Source: Patescibacteria group bacterium AH-259-L07
GTDB lineage: Bacteria; Patescibacteriota; Patescibacteriia; UBA2591; UBA6264
Length of the DNA stretch: 33,749 bases
Reading direction: 5' to 3'
Assembly (NCBI GenBank): GCA_027718005.1
Contig: JALLOP010000004.1
Location: 1-33,749 of the forward strand
Positions 2,112 to 33,749 of the stretch are shown here, in pieces. The notes below the pieces were generated by a model, which was given only the letters and a program-made list of their open reading frames with translations, was not told the DNA's origin and ran no database searches. Position 1 is the first letter of the stretch. Every line of letters starts with the position of its first letter. The translations under genes and the position numbers were made by a program.

Positions 2112-4724
2112 TTATAAATTGCCTTGTATTCCTTTAAAGCTTTCTCGAAAATCATTTTTTATATATTTAGTGTCTCTAATTGTGAATGCTGGCATCGTTC
2201 CCTCTAATACATCCACAACTCTTTTGTTGGTAGCGGGGTTCTCAATACTGCCAGAAGAATATCTTATTTCATTTACCCTTTTGTTCATGCTTGCAGATAT
2301 AATTTGCTCTGCATCACACACAACGGCTAAATTCGGATTGTGAGTAACTATGATTAATTGTCTTTTTTGTTTCGCTCTTTTTATATATGGTACTAACAAT
2401 TCATAAACAGATTCATTGTCTAGATTTTCTTCAGGTTGATCCATAATCAACGGAATATCGCCTTTATCAATCAACAGATAAAAAATAAGTAATAAAGTAC
2501 CTTTTTCTCCTGGGGAAAATTCATTATCATTTAAATCTTTGCCATTGAATAGAAGTTTATATTTAACATCCAGATAACCAAACCCGAATACAAAGTCGTA
2601 AAACTCTATGTTTTTTTCATCACCCCCCTTAAGCTGATCCTTTATAACATTTGAGGTTGGCGGATTATTTGTTTTGTCTTCTTCTAAATGTTCTATCAAT
2701 TCTTGAGTAAAATCTTCAGTTTCTTTTTCTTGGATAAAATCATACTTCACTATAATGTCATTTAGAATTTTTTTACCTTTATCAATAAATTGAAAACTAC
2801 CATCTCTATTTTGATTTATATGCCCCAAGAACTGTTCACTAAATCCTTGCCTATCAAATACGATACCTACATCAAAGCTTAAGATACTTTTTACTCTTTT
2901 TTGTGCTTCTTTTTCTCTTGCTATAAATTGAGTCAGTGGATAATAGATTTCTTTATAAAAGGAAATCTTTTTCTCTAATTCTTGAAATAAAGTTCTCGCC
3001 TTATCGCTTCTTTTCTTTTTCAACTCTTTTAAATCTGTTACGAGAAACTTTTGTACATATTTAATTTCCGCCTCAATAGACTTAATCGTTTCTAGACTTC
3101 CATCATCTTTTTTGCCTATAATTTTTTTCTTCTGATTTTCATAATCTTCTTTCCTTTTCTTATACTCCTCGTATAGTTTTTGATCTGCATCAAGGGTTTT
3201 CGTGATTTTATCTCTCTTGTCCTGTAAGCTACTTTTTTTAGCAGATAAACCCACTTTCTCATCTGGGCTGTATATATTAAGTTTTTCTAAAAGATTATTC
3301 TTTTGCCTGGTCAAAGCTGTTTTTTTCTTTATGATCGATGATTTGTTTAATTTAATTTTAATAATCTTATTTAAGTCCAAAGATAATAATCTTGCATCAT
3401 CAGTAAATTTACTGATTACTGCTTCAAATTTCTCAAGTAATTCATCAATACTGCTTTCTATTTTTTGTATCTTAACAAGTTTATCTTCAATATCTTTCAG
3501 GTTCTCTTTTGAAGTAGATATTTCTTTGTCAACTTTGCCAAGCATCATAGTTAAGGAGTCGTATCTTTTCTGTTGTTTTTCACTTAATCTTAACGTTGGC
3601 TTTTTAACTATTTTAGGTTTAGATAAGCTCTTTAGTTGTCGTTGTTTATCGGCAAGCTTCTTTTTTAATTGCTTAACATAAGTATCGTTATTCTTACTTT
3701 CTAAATTTACAACTTTTACATTAATGTCGTGTATAGTATTTCTAATTTTAGTTATATTACCATCAATTACCTCTGTCTTTATCTTGACTAAATCGGCTAA
3801 ATTATTAGTTCCTAATCTATTTTCATCTGGGACATAAGAGTAAATAACCTTATCAATTTCTTGCTGGAACTTAACGCTCACACCATCCTCGTTACAAATA
3901 GTCTCTACATATTTTTGTGGTAAATATGCGACCTCTTCAACTTCTGTTTGTACAACCTCGCTGTCTAAATTAGCCTTGGTTTCTTTTTTATCCAGCCACC
4001 TTAAAGTAGCTTGGTAATTTTTAGCCAATCCTTTTTTGCGAAATTTCTTCGTTGTTAAGAAAGAATAGTCGTCGGGATTAATCTTACTTCTTCCCAAAAG
4101 GCTTACAATATCTGTAAAGGCACTTTTGCCACTCCCTTTTCTTCCTATGACAGCAACTAGACCACTATTGAGTGGTAGTTCATCGTTAAACCACGATGGC
4201 GAAGCTCCATGGTTAACGTTGCTGATTTTAATTGAATCAACGTACTTTGACCTATTTTTTTCAATTTCAGAAATCTTCAGAGGTAATGTGCCAATATAAA
4301 CCCTGTCTTCAGGTTCATTGACTATCTGTTTAAAGCCCTGGAATGTAGTATCTGCTTTTATCCAAGTTATCTTACCATTCGGAAATTTGCCATATTCAGA
4401 ATACTTATGTGCATCACTACCAGATATAACTGGTTTTGGATATCCTCCGAGAGTCTTCTGAAAGTTTTTTATGAACTTTTTATTTTTTTTTGTTTTTCTG
4501 CCTAAAAATAAATCTATGGAATCATCGTTTCTAGATTCAAATATATGAGCAGATTGCATAAAATAATTATCTGCGTAAGGTTGATTCTCCCATTTAAGTT
4601 TTTTTAAGCCATCGCTTGTATCATAGGGCATTATGATGTATGCGGTTCCTTCTGGAACAGAGAGTAAAGCTTCCTTGAGTGATTCCTTGGTAACCTCAAT
4701 CGTCTTTGACCCCAATTGTAACAA
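2112..4724 (-). CDS. SMC/AAA-like ATPase part of a PHP-ATPase (TrlF-like) protein; 3' part of a frameshifted gene
   Basis: Walker A GRKGSGKSAFTDIV, long coiled coil, Walker B region DIPLIMDQPEENLDN, and IIVTHNPNLAVVCDAEQII. The ORF begins in mid-domain at a TTG. Confidence 0.8.
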   Translation of the reverse strand: MLQLGSKTIEVTKESLKEALLSVPEGTAYIIMPYDTSDGLKKLKWENQPYADNYFMQSAHIFESRNDDSIDLFLGRKTKKNKKFIKNFQKTLGGYPKPVISGSDAHKYSEYGKFPNGKITWIKADTTFQGFKQIVNEPEDRVYIGTLPLKISEIEKNRSKYVDSIKISNVNHGASPSWFNDELPLNSGLVAVIGRKGSGKSAFTDIVSLLGRSKINPDDYSFLTTKKFRKKGLAKNYQATLRWLDKKETKANLDSEVVQTEVEEVAYLPQKYVETICNEDGVSVKFQQEIDKVIYSYVPDENRLGTNNLADLVKIKTEVIDGNITKIRNTIHDINVKVVNLESKNNDTYVKQLKKKLADKQRQLKSLSKPKIVKKPTLRLSEKQQKRYDSLTMMLGKVDKEISTSKENLKDIEDKLVKIQKIESSIDELLEKFEAVISKFTDDARLLSLDLNKIIKIKLNKSSIIKKKTALTRQKNNLLEKLNIYSPDEKVGLSAKKSSLQDKRDKITKTLDADQKLYEEYKKRKEDYENQKKKIIGKKDDGSLETIKSIEAEIKYVQKFLVTDLKELKKKRSDKARTLFQELEKKISFYKEIYYPLTQFIAREKEAQKRVKSILSFDVGIVFDRQGFSEQFLGHINQNRDGSFQFIDKGKKILNDIIVKYDFIQEKETEDFTQELIEHLEEDKTNNPPTSNVIKDQLKGGDEKNIEFYDFVFGFGYLDVKYKLLFNGKDLNDNEFSPGEKGTLLLIFYLLIDKGDIPLIMDQPEENLDNESVYELLVPYIKRAKQKRQLIIVTHNPNLAVVCDAEQIISASMNKRVNEIRYSSGSIENPATNKRVVDVLEGTMPAFTIRDTKYIKNDFRESFKGIQGNL

Positions 4725-5230
4725 ATCCCCTCATCGTCTAGATTATTTGGGGAGTCAAACCCATGTTTTTTCGCTTTGCTATCATCTAAACTTTTTGCAA
4801 AAGATATTATGGCTTCATCTGACAATACCTTGTTACTAAGGCTTGCAACTTTTAACTTTGATTTAAAATCAATCAAGGTTTGCTTGGAGAGTTTGTCAGA
4901 CAAAATCACCTGTATATTTAGTCTATAATTTACTGGAGCTTCAATCCTTAACTCCATTCCAGGGAATACAGCCTTACTCAAATTTATTTTATACTTATCT
5001 AAATACTCTCGAAAAGCTATATATCCATCAAATGTCCAGTAATCCATTATGGCGAAAGCGGCTACGTTACTATTTTTGATTGCCTTTTCCATATCTTCCA
5101 TTGTTCTCCCCTTCTCATTATCATTCATATTTATTAAGCGTTTCCCTCCTTTCCAATAAAAAGAGGCGGGTGTATGAATATGTAAATCCCACATTCTCCA
5201 TTCAGAACCTCTCTCAAAATTAGTTGACAT
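4631..5230 (-). CDS. PHP-like N-terminal part of the same protein; 5' part of a frameshifted gene
   Basis: WRMWDLHIHTPASF PHP-type motif. The ORF runs out of frame at about 4725-4735, where the 870-aa ORF picks up. Confidence 0.75.
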   Translation of the reverse strand: MSTNFERGSEWRMWDLHIHTPASFYWKGGKRLINMNDNEKGRTMEDMEKAIKNSNVAAFAIMDYWTFDGYIAFREYLDKYKINLSKAVFPGMELRIEAPVNYRLNIQVILSDKLSKQTLIDFKSKLKVASLSNKVLSDEAIISFAKSLDDSKAKKHGFDSPNNLDDEGICYNWGQRRLRLPRNHSRKLYSLFQKEPHTS

Positions 5231-19837: not shown

Positions 19838-20716
19838 TTAAGAAAAGCGAAAATATTGATTAAGAAAAAAGATTTTGCCTTTCCCTTTGCCTTTTTCTTG
19901 TTCCAGGGTGACTGTGATCGTTTGTATTGATTCATCACCGAGATCAGCTCTGATTTGGTATTGGCCTGGGGATAAATCTTTGGTTGAAAGATTAAAGACA
20001 TATTGATTTTTATCTAGGTCATATCGAGCAATATTATCAAGATTAGCCTTGCCTGAAGAAACGGCTGGTTGTTCTGGTTGAGGGACTCCATTGATAATTT
20101 CCGCGATATAGATCAATGGTTGAATGCCCGAGATAAAATTCTCCTGCGCGTCTTTAAGCTGAAACTTAACGGGCAAATCTCTGCCTAAATTATATGTCTT
20201 GTCTTTCTGGAATGGTGGTAAAAATCCAGAAAAGTCATAAAAGACTTTAAATTCTTTGGTTTCTGTAGTGGTATGACCTGCAAAATCAGTGGCAGCCAGG
20301 GTAAATACATTTGTGCCTCGTTGATCAAGAATTATTTGTTGACCACTGGTAATTGGTTGATTATTGAAAGTAGCTGAGATACCTTCAATACCTGAAACTG
20401 CATCAAAGGCAGAGAATTCAATTACTAATGGTTGTTTATAGATATAACTCTCTGCAAATACAGGTGCCGTTATTTCTGGTGCTGTTTTATCAATTTTAAT
20501 CTCTTTTGATTTGGCTTCCTCAATATTACCTGCGTTATCAATTGAACGATAAAATAACGTATGAATTCCTTCATCAGTGATCGTAAATGGTTGCGTAAAG
20601 GTCTGCCATATCTCTTGATCAAAACTATATTCTGTTTTTTCAACACCCGTACCACCCTCATTATCAACTGCGGTGAGACTGATTGTAACATCTGAAGTAA
20701 ACCAGTTATTTTGTCC
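19838..20716 (-). pseudogene. Frameshifted C-terminal part (Ig/OmpL47-like + PxKF-like) of the metalloprotease gene
   Basis: Continuous stop-free frame from 20716 to 19838: GQNNWFTSDVTISLTAVDNEGGTGVEKTEYSFD...APVFAESYIYKQPLVIEFSAFDAVSGIEGI...NLGRDLPVKFQLKDAQENF...TVTLEQEKGKGKGK. No start codon of its own before the TTG at 20176. Confidence 0.8.
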
Positions 20717-23700
20717 TTATAGTATCTGATAAAGAAATAGTGGTTGTTGGCGGAATAGCATCAACGATACCTGGCGAGATAGAAATATCTACTGTCCCTT
20801 GAGTTTGGTGAACTATAACCTCGCCGGGGTTGATGATTTGATTGGAAATGACGGCAGAATCAAAACTATTGGATGTCGTGTCAAAGAAGCGAGCGAAGAT
20901 GTCATAACTATCTGATGTATCGGGGAGTTGAGCAGCAATATCAGGATTTTCCTGGAAGAATTGCTGCGTATCTTTAGCAAAAACGAGGAATTTCACCTGG
21001 GTGCCTTCGGGTACAAAAATCCACTCTTCACCGCCCCAAAGATCACCCGATGCGATGGCACTTGGAATTTGGATTTCGTACTCTCCTATCTCGTAATTCA
21101 TCCCTACGTGAAGACCACTTGGACTGAATGCATGAAGGTCGAGGTCTGGAGCAATGTTTCCATCATCTAACGCGGCGGCATAAATACGAGGATGCGGTAC
21201 CTCTCGTGCCACCGTACTCGCATTAAGAGAGAGGGGGAAGAAAAGAAAGAAAATCAAGGCGAGAAGCACCAATACAATAACAAGGGCAACGACACCCAAC
21301 ACCTTTCTCTTCCGCGTACCCAACCGACTAATAACCACGCCGAACACGATCACAGTTAGCAGCGCAGCTACTCCGAAGCTTTTATAAAGTAGGGTTCGCA
21401 GCCCATATATCCAGTACTCCGGGTCACCCCTAACCCAATTCGGCCCGAATTCACCGCTATCGCTCTGTGCGTACACGGCATTGAGCCTCTCCGGCCCTCC
21501 GAAACTCCACAATCGTCCAAGCAGGTCCAGTCCCGGCCGCATCAGTGCACCCACATAGTTTGTGAGCGATTCATCGGTGACATCGACATCGACCTCGAAA
21601 CGATCAGGGAGATCCCGCGTACTGGTGACATCAACGATCAGGTCGTCAACAGGATTGCGGTATGGCAAGAGTCCGGCGGTGCCGAGTTCGGCCACAACAT
21701 CAACGAACGTGATGGTGGTCGGCTGACCATCGACAGTAACCTGCCGCGGTTCGACTCGATACACGACAGCTCCACTCTGCGGAGCATTGGTATCCCAGTC
21801 CGAGTACAGCGGATCCGTCGATCTTGCCTCGAGGAGGAAGTACACACCGCTTCCGGCGTCGAAACGCTTCACCAGGTCTCCCTCATTCATCGTGGACAGC
21901 GACTCGAGTGTGTGTGGCCCAAAAACAATGGGGTCTTCACCAAGCCAACCGAGTTTAATCTGGCTGTAGGACGAAAGATGCGCAGGGTCAGCACGAAAAA
22001 GCTTAGACAGATCCGTTCCCCCCATCAACCCCCAGTTGCCGATCGACCCGCCATCTTCACATCCCCCTACTGTCGTGTAGAGATCACATAAATGTGCTTT
22101 GAACTGTACGTCTCCGATGTGATGACCCATCTCATGGGCCCACTCGAGAACCTTATCGTTCTCTGACACCGTGATCCAGCGCGGAATTGGTGCAGGATCA
22201 AACTTGAAGGCAAAATCCCTTAGTCGGAGTGGGTCGAACGGAAACACGAGTGCGCTTTCTCGCTCGCCAGGGAATACCACAACCGCAAAATCAGGAAGAG
22301 GGGTAATGTCCTGTATCGCAGCGACAAGCGCGTCGTAACCGAACTGTATCGTGCGATCGCGCTGATCCTCAAAATCGGTCACGGAATCACCATTGAAGTC
22401 AAGATCGATCCGTGGGTCGTGATTTTCGGAATAGAAGGCCCAGTCATTAGGGAGCTGGTAGAGCTGCCCACCGTTATCGAAGACTTGGAATTGTAAGTCC
22501 ACCAGCCCATCAATACAGACATCACTCTCGTCACGCGCACCAAAAGACACTTCACACCAATAGTCCTTTACGTCCGGAAACACGTTAGATGTGAAGTGAG
22601 CCGCATCATGACTTGGGTCGAAGTTTCTACCGCCGCTCGGCTCAGCTAAAATCACTGCCACATCAATCGTGGTAACTGGAGGAATAAACTCGCCAGTATA
22701 TGGTTCATCACTCGTAAAAATAAAGTTAATTTGCTCGTCCTCCAACGCTTCACTGCGAATAAACAAATCATCAAACCCGTATGCTCGGTTCGCCTGGGCA
22801 GACCCAAAATTAACCCCGTACCAAGACGTTTGTGGGATAATGGAGGCATGGGGCGCCGTTGTCTTTAAGATCCCGTCAACAAACAATGAAACACTGGTGC
22901 CGTCATACCGACACGCGGCATGATGCCACTGGTTGTCAAGGGTCCAGGGTGTGGTCACTGCTACCTTGTGGTCAGTGAAAATGTCACAGCCAACACGGAC
23001 ATCGCCAGGACTTTTTTGGATCAAATACAAGCCCGATCGCTGGGCAAGAAGAGACGCCTTTACACACAGGCTTTCACTTAAGTTCTGGCACAGACTTAAT
23101 ACATACTGGGGACGATTATTGTCTCGAAGACTCCAATTCGTCGGGGTGTTTACCCACAAACCAAACGTGGTCTGGGAAAGTGATGACAAGGGCTTGGTTG
23201 ACTGATTGCGCAGTGCTACTTGGGCACCGCCGCCACGTATTATCGTACCGCCGTTGTGAAATTTGCCCACGTCCCAGGTGAAAAAAGAGGGAAATTGGCC
23301 GGTCAGTTCTAAATGGCGCCCATTCGTGGTGGCATCATTGAAATTACCATCTAAGTGGTAAATGGCTTCGTCGATCTTCGCGGGTGGCGGTATATCAGGA
23401 AGAGGCGGACCATAGGGTTTTCCTGAGGTAGCGATGGTCGTAATTGCCGCATCACTCAACGCTTCACTGCGAATAAACAAATCATCAAACCCGTATGCTC
23501 GGTTCGCCTGGGCAGACCCAAAATTAACCCCGTACCAAGACGTTTGTGGGATAATGGAGGCATGGGGCGCCGTTGTCTTTAAGATCCCGTCAACAAACAA
23601 TGAAACACTGGTGCCGTCATACCGACACGCGGCATGATGCCACTGGTTGTCAAGGGTCCAGGGTGTGGTCACTGCTACCTTGTGGTCAGTGAAAATGTCA

Positions 23701-24242
23701 CAGCCAACACGGACATCGCCAGGACTTTTTTGGATCAAATACAAGCCCGATCGCTGGGCAAGAAGAGACGCCTTTACACACAGGCTTTCACTTAAGTTCT
23801 GGCACAGACTTAATACATACTGGGGACGATTATTGTCTCGAAGACTCCAATTCGTCGGGGTGTTTACCCACAAACCAAACGTGGTCTGGGAAAGTGATGA
23901 CAAGGGCTTGGTTGACTGATTGCGCAGTGCTACTTGGGCACCGCCGCCACGTATTATCGTACCGCCGTTGTGAAATTTGCCCACGTCCCAGGTGAAAAAA
24001 GAGGGAAATTGGCCGGTCAGTTCTAAATGGCGCCCATTCGTGGTGGCATCATTGAAATTACCATCTAAGTGGTAAATGGCTTCATCAATTTGGGCAAAGA
24101 GTTGCTGCTGCTGTTGTTGGAAAAGTGGATAAAATAAAAAGAAGAGAAAAAAACAAAAGAAAAAAATTAGCCTTATCCTAAACCATGGATTTAAAAACTT
24201 AATTTGTTTATATTCTCTATTAAAAAATTTCTTTCTTATCAT
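20706..24242 (-). CDS. LamG-LamG-M6-like metalloprotease, membrane-anchored giant protein
   Basis: Two identical LamG-like domains (IDEAIYHLDGNFND...FDDLFIRSEAL); VLEWAHEMGHHIGDV (HExxH) with downstream IGNWGLMGG (M6-like); TM segments near residue 950. Confidence 0.85.
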   Translation of the reverse strand: MIRKKFFNREYKQIKFLNPWFRIRLIFFFCFFLFFLFYPLFQQQQQQLFAQIDEAIYHLDGNFNDATTNGRHLELTGQFPSFFTWDVGKFHNGGTIIRGGGAQVALRNQSTKPLSSLSQTTFGLWVNTPTNWSLRDNNRPQYVLSLCQNLSESLCVKASLLAQRSGLYLIQKSPGDVRVGCDIFTDHKVAVTTPWTLDNQWHHAACRYDGTSVSLFVDGILKTTAPHASIIPQTSWYGVNFGSAQANRAYGFDDLFIRSEALSDAAITTIATSGKPYGPPLPDIPPPAKIDEAIYHLDGNFNDATTNGRHLELTGQFPSFFTWDVGKFHNGGTIIRGGGAQVALRNQSTKPLSSLSQTTFGLWVNTPTNWSLRDNNRPQYVLSLCQNLSESLCVKASLLAQRSGLYLIQKSPGDVRVGCDIFTDHKVAVTTPWTLDNQWHHAACRYDGTSVSLFVDGILKTTAPHASIIPQTSWYGVNFGSAQANRAYGFDDLFIRSEALEDEQINFIFTSDEPYTGEFIPPVTTIDVAVILAEPSGGRNFDPSHDAAHFTSNVFPDVKDYWCEVSFGARDESDVCIDGLVDLQFQVFDNGGQLYQLPNDWAFYSENHDPRIDLDFNGDSVTDFEDQRDRTIQFGYDALVAAIQDITPLPDFAVVVFPGERESALVFPFDPLRLRDFAFKFDPAPIPRWITVSENDKVLEWAHEMGHHIGDVQFKAHLCDLYTTVGGCEDGGSIGNWGLMGGTDLSKLFRADPAHLSSYSQIKLGWLGEDPIVFGPHTLESLSTMNEGDLVKRFDAGSGVYFLLEARSTDPLYSDWDTNAPQSGAVVYRVEPRQVTVDGQPTTITFVDVVAELGTAGLLPYRNPVDDLIVDVTSTRDLPDRFEVDVDVTDESLTNYVGALMRPGLDLLGRLWSFGGPERLNAVYAQSDSGEFGPNWVRGDPEYWIYGLRTLLYKSFGVAALLTVIVFGVVISRLGTRKRKVLGVVALVIVLVLLALIFFLFFPLSLNASTVAREVPHPRIYAAALDDGNIAPDLDLHAFSPSGLHVGMNYEIGEYEIQIPSAIASGDLWGGEEWIFVPEGTQVKFLVFAKDTQQFFQENPDIAAQLPDTSDSYDIFARFFDTTSNSFDSAVISNQIINPGEVIVHQTQGTVDISISPGIVDAIPPTTTISLSDTIRTK
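22743..23369. repeat. 627-bp tandem duplication, copy 1
   Basis: By eye identical to 23457-24083; offset 714 bp (238 codons). Confidence 0.95.
23457..24083. repeat. 627-bp tandem duplication, copy 2
   Basis: By eye identical to 22743-23369. Confidence 0.95.
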
Positions 24243-29162: not shown

Positions 29163-30122
29163 ATGCCAACCAAAATTCAAAAATTAATTACTGATTTTCT
29201 TGAACACTTAGAGATTGAAAAAGGATGTTCTCAATTAACAATTAGAAATTACCATTTTTATCTGAACCGTTTTTTAGAACAATCAGGCATTTCATCGCCA
29301 GAACAAATCACCTCAGAGGTTGTTCATCAATACCGTTTGTGGCTTTCACGGTTAAAAAACCCGCGCGGCGGCACATTATCTCGAGCAACGCAAAATTATC
29401 ATTTAATTGCCTTACGCGTATTTTTAAAATACTTACTAAAACAAGATATTGAAACGCTCTCACCAGAAAAAATTGAGCTCGCCAAAACATCTGACCGGCA
29501 GGTCTCATTTTTAGAAGGCGAAGATTTGGAAAACCTTTTAGACGCCCCGCTCACTATAAAACAAAATAATATTATTAAATTTCGTGATAAAGCAATTTTA
29601 GAACTACTTTTTTCCACAGGATTACGTGTTTCTGAGCTATGCAGCTTAAAAAAAGAAGATATTAATCTTGATAAGAGCGAATTTAGTGTTCTTGGCAAGG
29701 GCAGAAAATATCGACTGGTTTTTCTCTCAAACCAAGCGAAACATTGGCTGAAAAAATACCTTGAAATGCGAAACGATATGGATCCTTTTCTCTTTATTCG
29801 CCACGACCGCGCTGCTAAAAAAACAACGAAAAAAAAGAAAAAAACGCGATACACATCAGCATCAACAGGTCTCACCCCGCGCTCAGTGCAACGATTAGTA
29901 AAAAAATATGCAAAAGTTGCCGGGGTCACGAAAAAGATAACTGTCCATTCGATTCGCCACTCTTTCGCGACTGACCTGCTTTCCAGCGGTGCTAGAATGC
30001 GTGCAGTTCAAGAACTGCTCGGTCATAAAAATATTACTACCACTCAAATTTATACTCATGTCACTGACCAACACTTAAAAAAAATATACCAAGCGTTTCA
30101 CGACAAAAAACGAAAAAAATGA
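29163..30122 (+). CDS. xerC: Tyrosine recombinase XerC/XerD-like
   Basis: LLFSTGLRVSELCSLKKEDI (R), HSIRHSFATDLLSSGARMRAVQELLGHKNITTTQIYTHV (HxxR...H...Y). Confidence 0.95.
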   Translation: MPTKIQKLITDFLEHLEIEKGCSQLTIRNYHFYLNRFLEQSGISSPEQITSEVVHQYRLWLSRLKNPRGGTLSRATQNYHLIALRVFLKYLLKQDIETLSPEKIELAKTSDRQVSFLEGEDLENLLDAPLTIKQNNIIKFRDKAILELLFSTGLRVSELCSLKKEDINLDKSEFSVLGKGRKYRLVFLSNQAKHWLKKYLEMRNDMDPFLFIRHDRAAKKTTKKKKKTRYTSASTGLTPRSVQRLVKKYAKVAGVTKKITVHSIRHSFATDLLSSGARMRAVQELLGHKNITTTQIYTHVTDQHLKKIYQAFHDKKRKK

Positions 30123-30167: not shown

Positions 30168-30239
30168 CTCCCCATAGCTCAATGGATAGAGCACTAGTCT
30201 TCTAAACTAGGTACGCAGGTTCGACTCCTGCTGGGGAGA
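30168..30239 (+). tRNA. tRNA-Arg (anticodon TCT)
   Basis: Cloverleaf: CTCCCCA acceptor / TGGGGAG; D-arm GCTC...GAGC; anticodon stem CTAGT-CTTCTAA-ACTAG; T-arm GCAGG-TTCGACT-CCTGC. Confidence 0.96.
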
Positions 30240-30435
30240 CTAAAGGGGCTGGGTGAAAGTCCTGCCAGGCGCACCACCAAAAAAAGTCAAACTCAAAACA
30301 CATTTTAATAAAAAAAAAATTTTAATTAGTGCGGAAACAGAAATTCCTAAAGATTTCTGTTTTTTTATGTTGCAAATCACAAAACAAAAACAACAAAAAA
30401 AATGGTGACATCTTGACTTATCCCCAACAGGGGGA

Positions 30436-31409: not shown

Positions 31410-31796
31410 ATGATGGAAAAATATCCAACGTTTGAGAATAATCCTGAGGACAAAGAGGATAAGCGAGGCAAAATCCCGGAATCGCTTAAAGTCGAAGCTA
31501 CAACAGAAGAGGGAAAGAAAATCGAGGGAGAACTTTTCCTGTCTGAAAAGCAGGTAGCTGAATACTTAGCTGAGCATGAATCTATGCAACGGGAAATGCT
31601 TGGCGGAAAAGAACACCTTGTATTGCGAGGTATGTCAGTAAAAAGAGCACAAGAACTAATGGATGCTATGGGCACACGAGGTCTAACTGTTGAAGAGTTA
31701 GCTGAAGCAATGGTGCACGATGCCGGTTTTGCCAAGCGAGCAAAAGAACAAGTGAAGGCTTTAATGAGCGCGGAAGAGGGCCTCGAAAAAACTTGA
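31410..31796 (+). CDS. Hypothetical protein, probably 5' part of a frameshifted ORF
   Basis: 128 aa charged helical protein. An adjacent +1-frame continuation (KLEYFKAGKLPMELFNEVRNV...) begins at an A6 run. Confidence 0.55.
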   Translation: MMEKYPTFENNPEDKEDKRGKIPESLKVEATTEEGKKIEGELFLSEKQVAEYLAEHESMQREMLGGKEHLVLRGMSVKRAQELMDAMGTRGLTVEELAEAMVHDAGFAKRAKEQVKALMSAEEGLEKT

Positions 31797-31815: not shown

Positions 31816-32064
31816 TTGCCAATGGAACTTTTTAATGAAGTAAGGAATGTTCTCGAAAAGGGAGAAGAGGCAATTCCAGAAGCAATTGAAGAAGCTAAGA
31901 AAAAATTTGCGGAAGTCGAATACATAAGGAATGAATATAATAATCCGAAATCAGTAAATTTCAGATTCGGTGGTGGCGTACCGACAGAAGGAACGCCCGA
32001 AGAAATTTTGAAAGTCGATGATAGTGAATTCACGAGAGTCAAGAGAGAATTGGAAAATAAATAG
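31816..32064 (+). CDS. Hypothetical protein, probably 3' part of the preceding ORF
   Basis: 82 aa in the +1 frame; its reading frame is open upstream to the A6 run. Confidence 0.5.
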   Translation: MPMELFNEVRNVLEKGEEAIPEAIEEAKKKFAEVEYIRNEYNNPKSVNFRFGGGVPTEGTPEEILKVDDSEFTRVKRELENK

Positions 32065-32108
32065 GTTTTCATATTTTTGGTTTATATTAGCCTCGCGAAC
32101 TTTTCAAC

Positions 32109-33308
32109 TTGCCGCCAAAAAAAAATTGGAAATTGTTAAATCTTGCGGCGAAGCCGCTCCGAATTATGCAAGAAGAAACACAAATTACAGATGAGTGGGT
32201 TCGCTCTGGTCTGCTAGAGGCAATTCACATCAATTATCAAGAATCTACTCTAAATATTCCACCCTTTAAAAAACTTGAAAGCAAACAAGTTTCTTTGTCG
32301 TTACCGGAGGCGAACCCACTCCAACAGCAAACGCAAGGGTTAGCGCCAGTTGATCAGATTCTGGCAATTATGCTTTCAAAATCTGTCCGTAGGGGCAAGA
32401 AGGCCCTTATTGAGCCTTTTTTGGATTCGGTTCGAAAAAAAATACAAAGTATTGTTGATCATCAGCAGCCAATCAGTTTTATATTACCCACATTACCTTT
32501 CAAGGACCAAAGCCCTTTTGTAACTGGCGCATCAATTGGCCATGTTGATTTGGGCGAATATGCGTTTTTCGCGCAAATCAAAAGAATTCTTAATGCGATA
32601 AGAGAAGTTTATGCGTCCGGAGCGCACATGACTCTGCTTTGTGATGGATATATATACGCGGATATTTTCGCTAATGGCGATAAAAAAGGAGCCGGACGCT
32701 ACAAAGCTCGATGTGAGCAAATAAAAAATGATTACGGATTATACAACGAAGTCACTTTGTTCGACATGCGCGAAGTTCTTTTTGATATGCCGGGATGGAA
32801 ACATGTAGAAGCCGCCATTCAAGAAGTTGTTCGAAAATTATATCAAGCCGACCCAGCCGCAAAAGAAAGATTGGATACTTTAGCCCGGCGATTTGTTTTC
32901 CATGTCGCAATACCAAATCATTCATATGAAGAAGCCCGAGTGATTTACTCCAACCCTCCTTGGCCAAATTGGCTTTGGGAGAAACTTTTAGATTCGGCTA
33001 TTAGGTACAGCGCGCTGCAACTTACTCTTAAAAAAACTGAACTTGTGAAAAGAGCTTTTCCCTCAGCGGTGCGTTGTACTGTTCATCCAAAAGCTGCAGC
33101 GCAGTTGCCACTGCATTTAACCAACCCACACAATCAACTATTGCCCTACAATGGTGTTGCCACAATATCGCGACAAGCCCAAACGAGAGGTCAATCTTTG
33201 TTCCAAGCTTTAAGAATCAAAAGATTATGTAATATTCTTGAATATGACAACGTTATTGCCGTAGACACCGAAAATTCAAAAGATCCGATTTATTATGAGA
33301 TCCCTTAA
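32109..33308 (+). CDS. Isocyanide synthase family protein (DIT1/PvcA-like); start possibly ATG at 32166
   Basis: ILAIMLSKSVRRG, ISFILPTLPFKDQSPFVTG, GAHMTLLCDGYIYADIF, EVTLFDMREVLFDMPG, FPSAVRCTVHPKAAAQLPLHLT, LLPYNGVATIS, all in DIT1/PvcA order. Confidence 0.82.
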   Translation: MPPKKNWKLLNLAAKPLRIMQEETQITDEWVRSGLLEAIHINYQESTLNIPPFKKLESKQVSLSLPEANPLQQQTQGLAPVDQILAIMLSKSVRRGKKALIEPFLDSVRKKIQSIVDHQQPISFILPTLPFKDQSPFVTGASIGHVDLGEYAFFAQIKRILNAIREVYASGAHMTLLCDGYIYADIFANGDKKGAGRYKARCEQIKNDYGLYNEVTLFDMREVLFDMPGWKHVEAAIQEVVRKLYQADPAAKERLDTLARRFVFHVAIPNHSYEEARVIYSNPPWPNWLWEKLLDSAIRYSALQLTLKKTELVKRAFPSAVRCTVHPKAAAQLPLHLTNPHNQLLPYNGVATISRQAQTRGQSLFQALRIKRLCNILEYDNVIAVDTENSKDPIYYEIP

Positions 33309-33445
33309 TTCAGTCGGCCTGTTCAAGCGAAGGCGCAGCGAACTATTTTCAGTATTCTGCACTTTTTTTATTTTATAATCGAGGAATTTTGAAAATGTCT
33401 GAAATTAACAATTTCAAGCATTTTCCAGAAATTCCGAAATTAGTT

Positions 33446-33707: not shown

Positions 33708-33736
33708 TTGACTTATTTTTTAAGCTATAGTATAAT
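33708..33736 (+). promoter_or_regulatory. Sigma70 promoter for an off-window gene
   Basis: TTGACT (33708-33713), 17 nt, TATAAT (33731-33736). Confidence 0.75.
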
Positions 33737-33749
33737 GAAAAAGTAATAA

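Follow-up and report, generated by a model that had tools for sequence, protein, structure and literature searches.

A separate branch of the PF05141 (DIT1/PvcA) family in Patescibacteria, with isonitrile synthesis as a plausible function

Patescibacteria are bacteria with reduced genomes, in which little specialised metabolism is known. Among the enzymes of the PvcA/IsnA family, an Fe/2OG oxygenase is a common, albeit not essential, partner. In a published phylogeny, bacterial PF05141 proteins come mainly from Proteobacteria, Cyanobacteria, and Actinobacteria (PMC5974471). The Pfam family, DIT1_PvcA, also includes yeast Dit1 (PMC5974471), compared here by description. Dit1 reportedly yields formyl tyrosine, with the P450 Dit2 as its partner, and is no isocyanide synthase (PMC7345447). 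Here, we explored the relationships and the genomic setting of a PF05141 gene from Patescibacteria group bacterium AH-259-L07. The window, that is, the whole stretch of DNA analysed, is a complete contig (C83, 33749 nt), so that nothing past position 33749 is readable in this assembly; the original prediction, made from this stretch, rightly described the genome as CPR-like. A congener, Patescibacteria group bacterium AH-259-L05, carries a 90%-identical orthologue.

The frame proposed at 32109-33308 on the forward strand is indeed open, and all the motifs quoted for it are present, namely, FILPTLPFK (residues 124-132), GAHMTLLCDGYIYADIF (171-187), FPSAVRCTVHP (317-327), PLHL (334-337), and LLPYNGVA (344-351). 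Translation probably starts at the ATG at 32166, giving a protein of 380 aa (32166..33308, forward strand), rather than at the unlikely TTG at 32109, because codons 1-19 counted from the TTG are poorly conserved and lie within one half of a dispersed repeat, and because, in the congener, an upstream HD-domain gene also reads through the stretch matching the pre-ATG region. Compared with the congener orthologue, these 19 codons show 63% identity and a dN/dS of 0.61, a rough figure from few codons; the value is 0.145 for codons 21-60 and 0.085 for the last 339 codons. For the orthologous pair, dN/dS is 0.10, in the range of the neighbouring housekeeping genes (0.07-0.29), which, at the level of codon comparison, shows that the gene is under purifying selection.

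Profile comparison confirms that the protein is a genuine member of the PF05141 family, as anticipated in the original prediction. The match scores 64.4 bits (E 1.6e-17; Pfam gathering cut-off, 26.4) and spans profile positions 1-254 of 273, i.e., nearly the full length of the domain (32442..33176, forward strand). In a single-sequence search, the only PDB relatives were PvcA (3e59, the best match, E 3e-9) and the isonitrile synthases 9dh4/9dhm (E 3e-9 to 2e-8), and PvcA and isonitrile-synthase structures were likewise the sole significant relatives of a ten-row profile (E 5e-30 and 2e-27). The nearly complete domain match, combined with this exclusive structural kinship, argues for a PvcA-like enzyme. 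The NCBIfam model NF045653 (PvcA-type L-Tyr isonitrile synthase) yielded 45.9 bits, compared to its equivalog cut-off of 600. A structure predicted from two sequences reached a pLDDT of 34, and the model was discarded.

Phylogenetic trees included the Patescibacteria relatives along with plasmid sequences of Agrobacterium, Microvirga, Burkholderia, Streptomyces, Embleya, and Hymenobacter. The window protein, its AH-259-L05 orthologue, and one protein from a genome of another family (G582) formed a single clade with 100/100 support. The canonical PvcA sequences formed a separate clade (95/87 in the 32-row tree and 100/100 in the 23-row tree); placement of the window protein inside the canonical PvcA/IsnA clade was tested, and the canonical sequences branched alone. 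Sequence comparison thus reveals a small branch, separate from the characterised PvcA clade and so far met only in Patescibacteria, in three genomes (the window genome, G000; the congener, G001; and G582). Its signature reads LPTLPFK.Q.P / DLGE...FAQ / DG..YA..F and continues AFP..R.TVHPK.A.QLPLHL.N.H / PYNG.A..SR; the G582 protein is 32% identical to the window protein, with most core residues invariant between the two. The sister of the branch is not fixed by the tree: its grouping with PvcA or with proteins fused to a MerR-HTH domain gave AU p values of 0.36 and 0.46, respectively, and its grouping with proteins encoded next to ROK kinases received 49/6 support. The profiles of these three groups give the window protein 59 bits (PvcA), 93 bits (MerR type), and 109 bits (ROK type).

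The likeness to PvcA/IsnA (3e59, 9dh4, 9dhm) extends beyond the nearly full-length domain to the Lys, Asp, Glu, Asp-Gly, Tyr, Arg, and His-Pro positions. Ten polar positions, chosen by conservation, are common to all canonical PvcA sequences and the IsnAB-type fusion, and the window protein retains 8 of these (K132, D147, E150, D179, D185, Y198, R322, and H326); 7 of the 8 are invariant across the three branch members, the exception being D185, which is Glu in G582. By contrast, PvcA Lys265 is replaced by Gln332, and PvcA His282, the His of the PWHG motif, by Asn348 in all three members. The window protein further differs in its N- and C-terminal extensions and in that nothing in it aligns with the canonical ITRFLxED segment, a loss that is not decisive because the IsnAB-type fusion also misses most of this segment. 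Of the original designation as an isocyanide synthase (DIT1/PvcA) homologue, membership in PF05141 therefore stands; the enzyme name is plausible rather than demonstrated, as the protein lies outside the PvcA clade, has lost the equivalents of Lys265 and His282, and falls far under the NCBIfam cut-off. These two losses, together with the failure to find partner genes, would fit a degenerate or purely binding or regulatory relative devoid of catalysis; given that most core residues stay invariant in a homologue of 32% identity from another family and that dN/dS is about 0.1, we consider such a relative improbable.

PF05141 is rare in the sampled Patescibacteria (about 1-3% of genomes; 4 of 145 relatives and 6 of 380 phylum-wide genomes score above the cut-off, with the window genome in both counts), yet the phylum holds at least four branches, that of the window included. 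In viral contigs, the patterns used found no relatives. Two of the Patescibacteria branches have conserved neighbourhoods. The MerR-HTH fusions (G080, G453, and G642) are 53-63% identical across three families; an O-methyltransferase gene comes next in G080 and G642, and in G453 the contig ends at this point. These fusions have in common with the window protein the domain and the retained Arg and His-Pro but differ in the fused HTH, an extra C-terminal domain, Met in place of the PWHG His, and the O-methyltransferase that follows in two of them. Fusions of MerR-HTH, PF05141, and C-terminal domains followed by an O-methyltransferase were located at L019:6723-9656 and L054:5801-8434; in L019, the pair sits between two serine recombinases. 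The ROK type is typified by G151 and G546, where a weak relative is followed, in this order, by HAD phosphatase(s), PF05141, and ROK kinase. A recurring Patescibacteria cluster of a divergent PF05141-like gene, HAD phosphatase(s), PF05141, and ROK kinase was located at L022:6499-12358 and L052:5193-9110. On plasmids of Agrobacterium and Microvirga, PF05141 lies between TRAP transporter and ROK genes, with genes that read by eye as zwf-pgl-edd-eda coming next in Microvirga. A third kind in Patescibacteria comprises weak relatives of 340 aa that carry an FGGYK motif.

The proteins of the ROK type resemble the window protein in their N- and C-terminal extensions and give it its best profile score. 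They differ in that Asp-Gly is mostly Glu-Gly, the Arg is lost in 7 of 8, the His of His-Pro is lost in all, the PWHG His is kept, and a ROK kinase adjoins the gene, with HAD phosphatase neighbours in Patescibacteria. The higher scores of the ROK and MerR profiles relative to PvcA, as well as the sugar-catabolic neighbours of the ROK type, argue against a PvcA-like enzyme. Instead, the window gene could encode a PF05141 enzyme that makes no isonitrile, its product being an N-formyl amine, as thought for Dit1, or its substrate or product a sugar-amine (Amadori-type) adduct broken or made in salvage. We hold this to be a serious, although secondary, possibility: it is favoured by the report that Dit1 is not an isocyanide synthase (PMC7345447), by the ROK kinases, HAD phosphatases, TRAP transporters, and Entner-Doudoroff genes that adjoin the ROK-type relatives, and by the disappearance of two polar residues common to PvcA and IsnAB, but the window branch retains Arg322 and His326, which are missing in nearly all ROK-type proteins, and neither a ROK kinase nor any other sugar kinase or phosphatase lies next to the window gene or in the regions flanking its orthologue.

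The gene ends 0.4 kb from the end of the contig, in a fragmented genome (1.41 Mb, 148 contigs, 75.6% complete), a position at which a contaminant or a misassembly might be suspected. Such an origin, which we consider extremely unlikely, is refuted by the congener, where the orthologue lies downstream of the same epimerase-PNPase-NYN-rpsO-XerC-tRNA-Arg block, and the GC content and codon use of the window fit the host genome; contamination was rejected on these grounds. Within the block, the gene for a XerC-type tyrosine recombinase (29163..30122, forward strand) is syntenic in the congener and adjoins the variable stretch, an association of position only, and the tRNA-Arg(TCT) gene (30168..30240, forward strand) marks the conserved edge of the variable stretch in which the PF05141 gene lies. 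The adjacent ORFs at 31410-31796 and 31816-32064 read as one protein split at an A run near 31786, through either a sequencing error or a real frameshift. Farther away, an 870-aa AAA ATPase ORF (2112-4724, reverse strand) matches the PADLOC Ppl model (66.7 bits) and overlaps an N-terminal ORF that reads by eye as PHP-like (4631-5230, reverse strand), so that 2112-5230 probably holds a single Ppl-like defence gene that a frameshift has interrupted. The start of the contig (1-1777, reverse strand) carries a group II intron (RF02005, 1542-1777) with a reverse transcriptase/maturase ORF. A 1178-aa LamG-domain protein (20706-24242, reverse strand) contains a long, apparently perfect internal duplication, and its gene has a GC content of about 50%, compared to about 38% around it.

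As originally noted, no PvcB-like oxygenase is encoded in the window; moreover, no PF02668 oxygenase (PvcB/IsnB type) was found in six genomes, namely, the three of the window branch, of which G000 and G001 are about 76% complete, and three others. The 10 kb downstream of the congener orthologue hold neither an oxygenase nor an NRPS, so an off-contig PvcB partner is unsupported, as are the suggested off-window partner genes. The promoter proposed at 33708-33736 does exist as a site (11/12 matches), but 10 promoter-like sites were counted in the region versus 6.7 +/- 2.7 in shuffles; a perfect DnaA box (TTATCCACA) adjoins this sigma-70-like site at the very end of the contig (33690-33736). AMP-binding proteins were rejected as partners as well, since they occur in G000 only and are thus not consistent. 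Downstream of the congener orthologue are toxin-antitoxin-like genes (assigned by eye), an SDR gene, and metK. The G582 gene is on its own, bracketed by terminator-like sequences (read by eye); a ferredoxin-reductase-like gene downstream forms a separate unit. All three window-branch genomes encode RpiB, a source of ribulose-5-phosphate.

DNA homology with the congener around the gene is confined to 32106-33364, and the flanks differ on both sides. The two ends of this block match the two halves of one repeat: the left half (32106..32165, forward strand), where the homology starts, is directly upstream of the ATG, and the right half (33339..33364, forward strand), where it ends, begins 31 nt after the stop codon and matches the repeat over 33339-33362. 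The repeat is intergenic, dispersed, and about 110-185 bp long, with two hairpins, and has ten full or partial matches in the window draft genome (among them L076:4263-4447, L076:1-160, L077:2643-2807, L078:1012-1120, and L010:12131-12250). Empty copies occur elsewhere in this genome, e.g., on contig C133 (4263-4447); close to the left end of C133, an empty copy adjoins the orthologue of the congener gene that follows PF05141. Thus, the flank comparison and the empty copy of C133 show that the PF05141 gene is set between repeat halves, with different neighbours, in two species. This cassette arrangement could reflect either repeat-to-repeat recombination or true insertion, as the draft contigs fit either, and the gene, judging by its place in a variable stretch between dispersed-repeat halves, behaves as an accessory gene. 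Considered as an integron attC site, the repeat is not exceptional in its folded single strand (z -1.3); a literature search found no published description in CPR. A more far-reaching and rather doubtful scenario is that PF05141 is mainly a family of enzymes condensing or cleaving sugar phosphates and amines, with several uncharacterised branches among Patescibacteria, the known isonitrile synthases as one specialised offshoot, and the window branch as a stand-alone cassette moved between loci inside a dispersed repeat.

We propose that the window gene codes for a functional enzyme of the PvcA/DIT1 superfamily with PvcA-like condensation chemistry, a reading to which we assign a probability of roughly 55%. 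The low dN/dS and the retention of 8 of 10 polar residues argue for a working enzyme, and the occurrence of RpiB in the three genomes, the fully supported clade, and the empty repeat copies also count in favour of the proposal; the replaced Lys265 and His282, the missing ITRFLxED segment, the lack of an oxygenase partner, and the low-confidence structural model weigh against it. The enzyme would most likely condense a pentulose phosphate (for PvcA, ribulose-5-phosphate) with an amino acid, at its amino group, or with another amine, through the Lys/Asp/Glu/Arg/His core conserved with PvcA, and, acting alone, could yield an isonitrile, which we consider the most likely single product, at somewhat less than even odds.

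Isonitrile synthesis is a plausible but still hypothetical function for a separate branch of PF05141. The recurring partners of two other branches suggest a chemistry that differs from the PvcA-PvcB route. Should the window enzyme make isonitriles, presumed epibionts would be the source of a small molecule that binds metals or is toxic; if it makes none, the enzyme would help to define other roles of the PF05141 fold.
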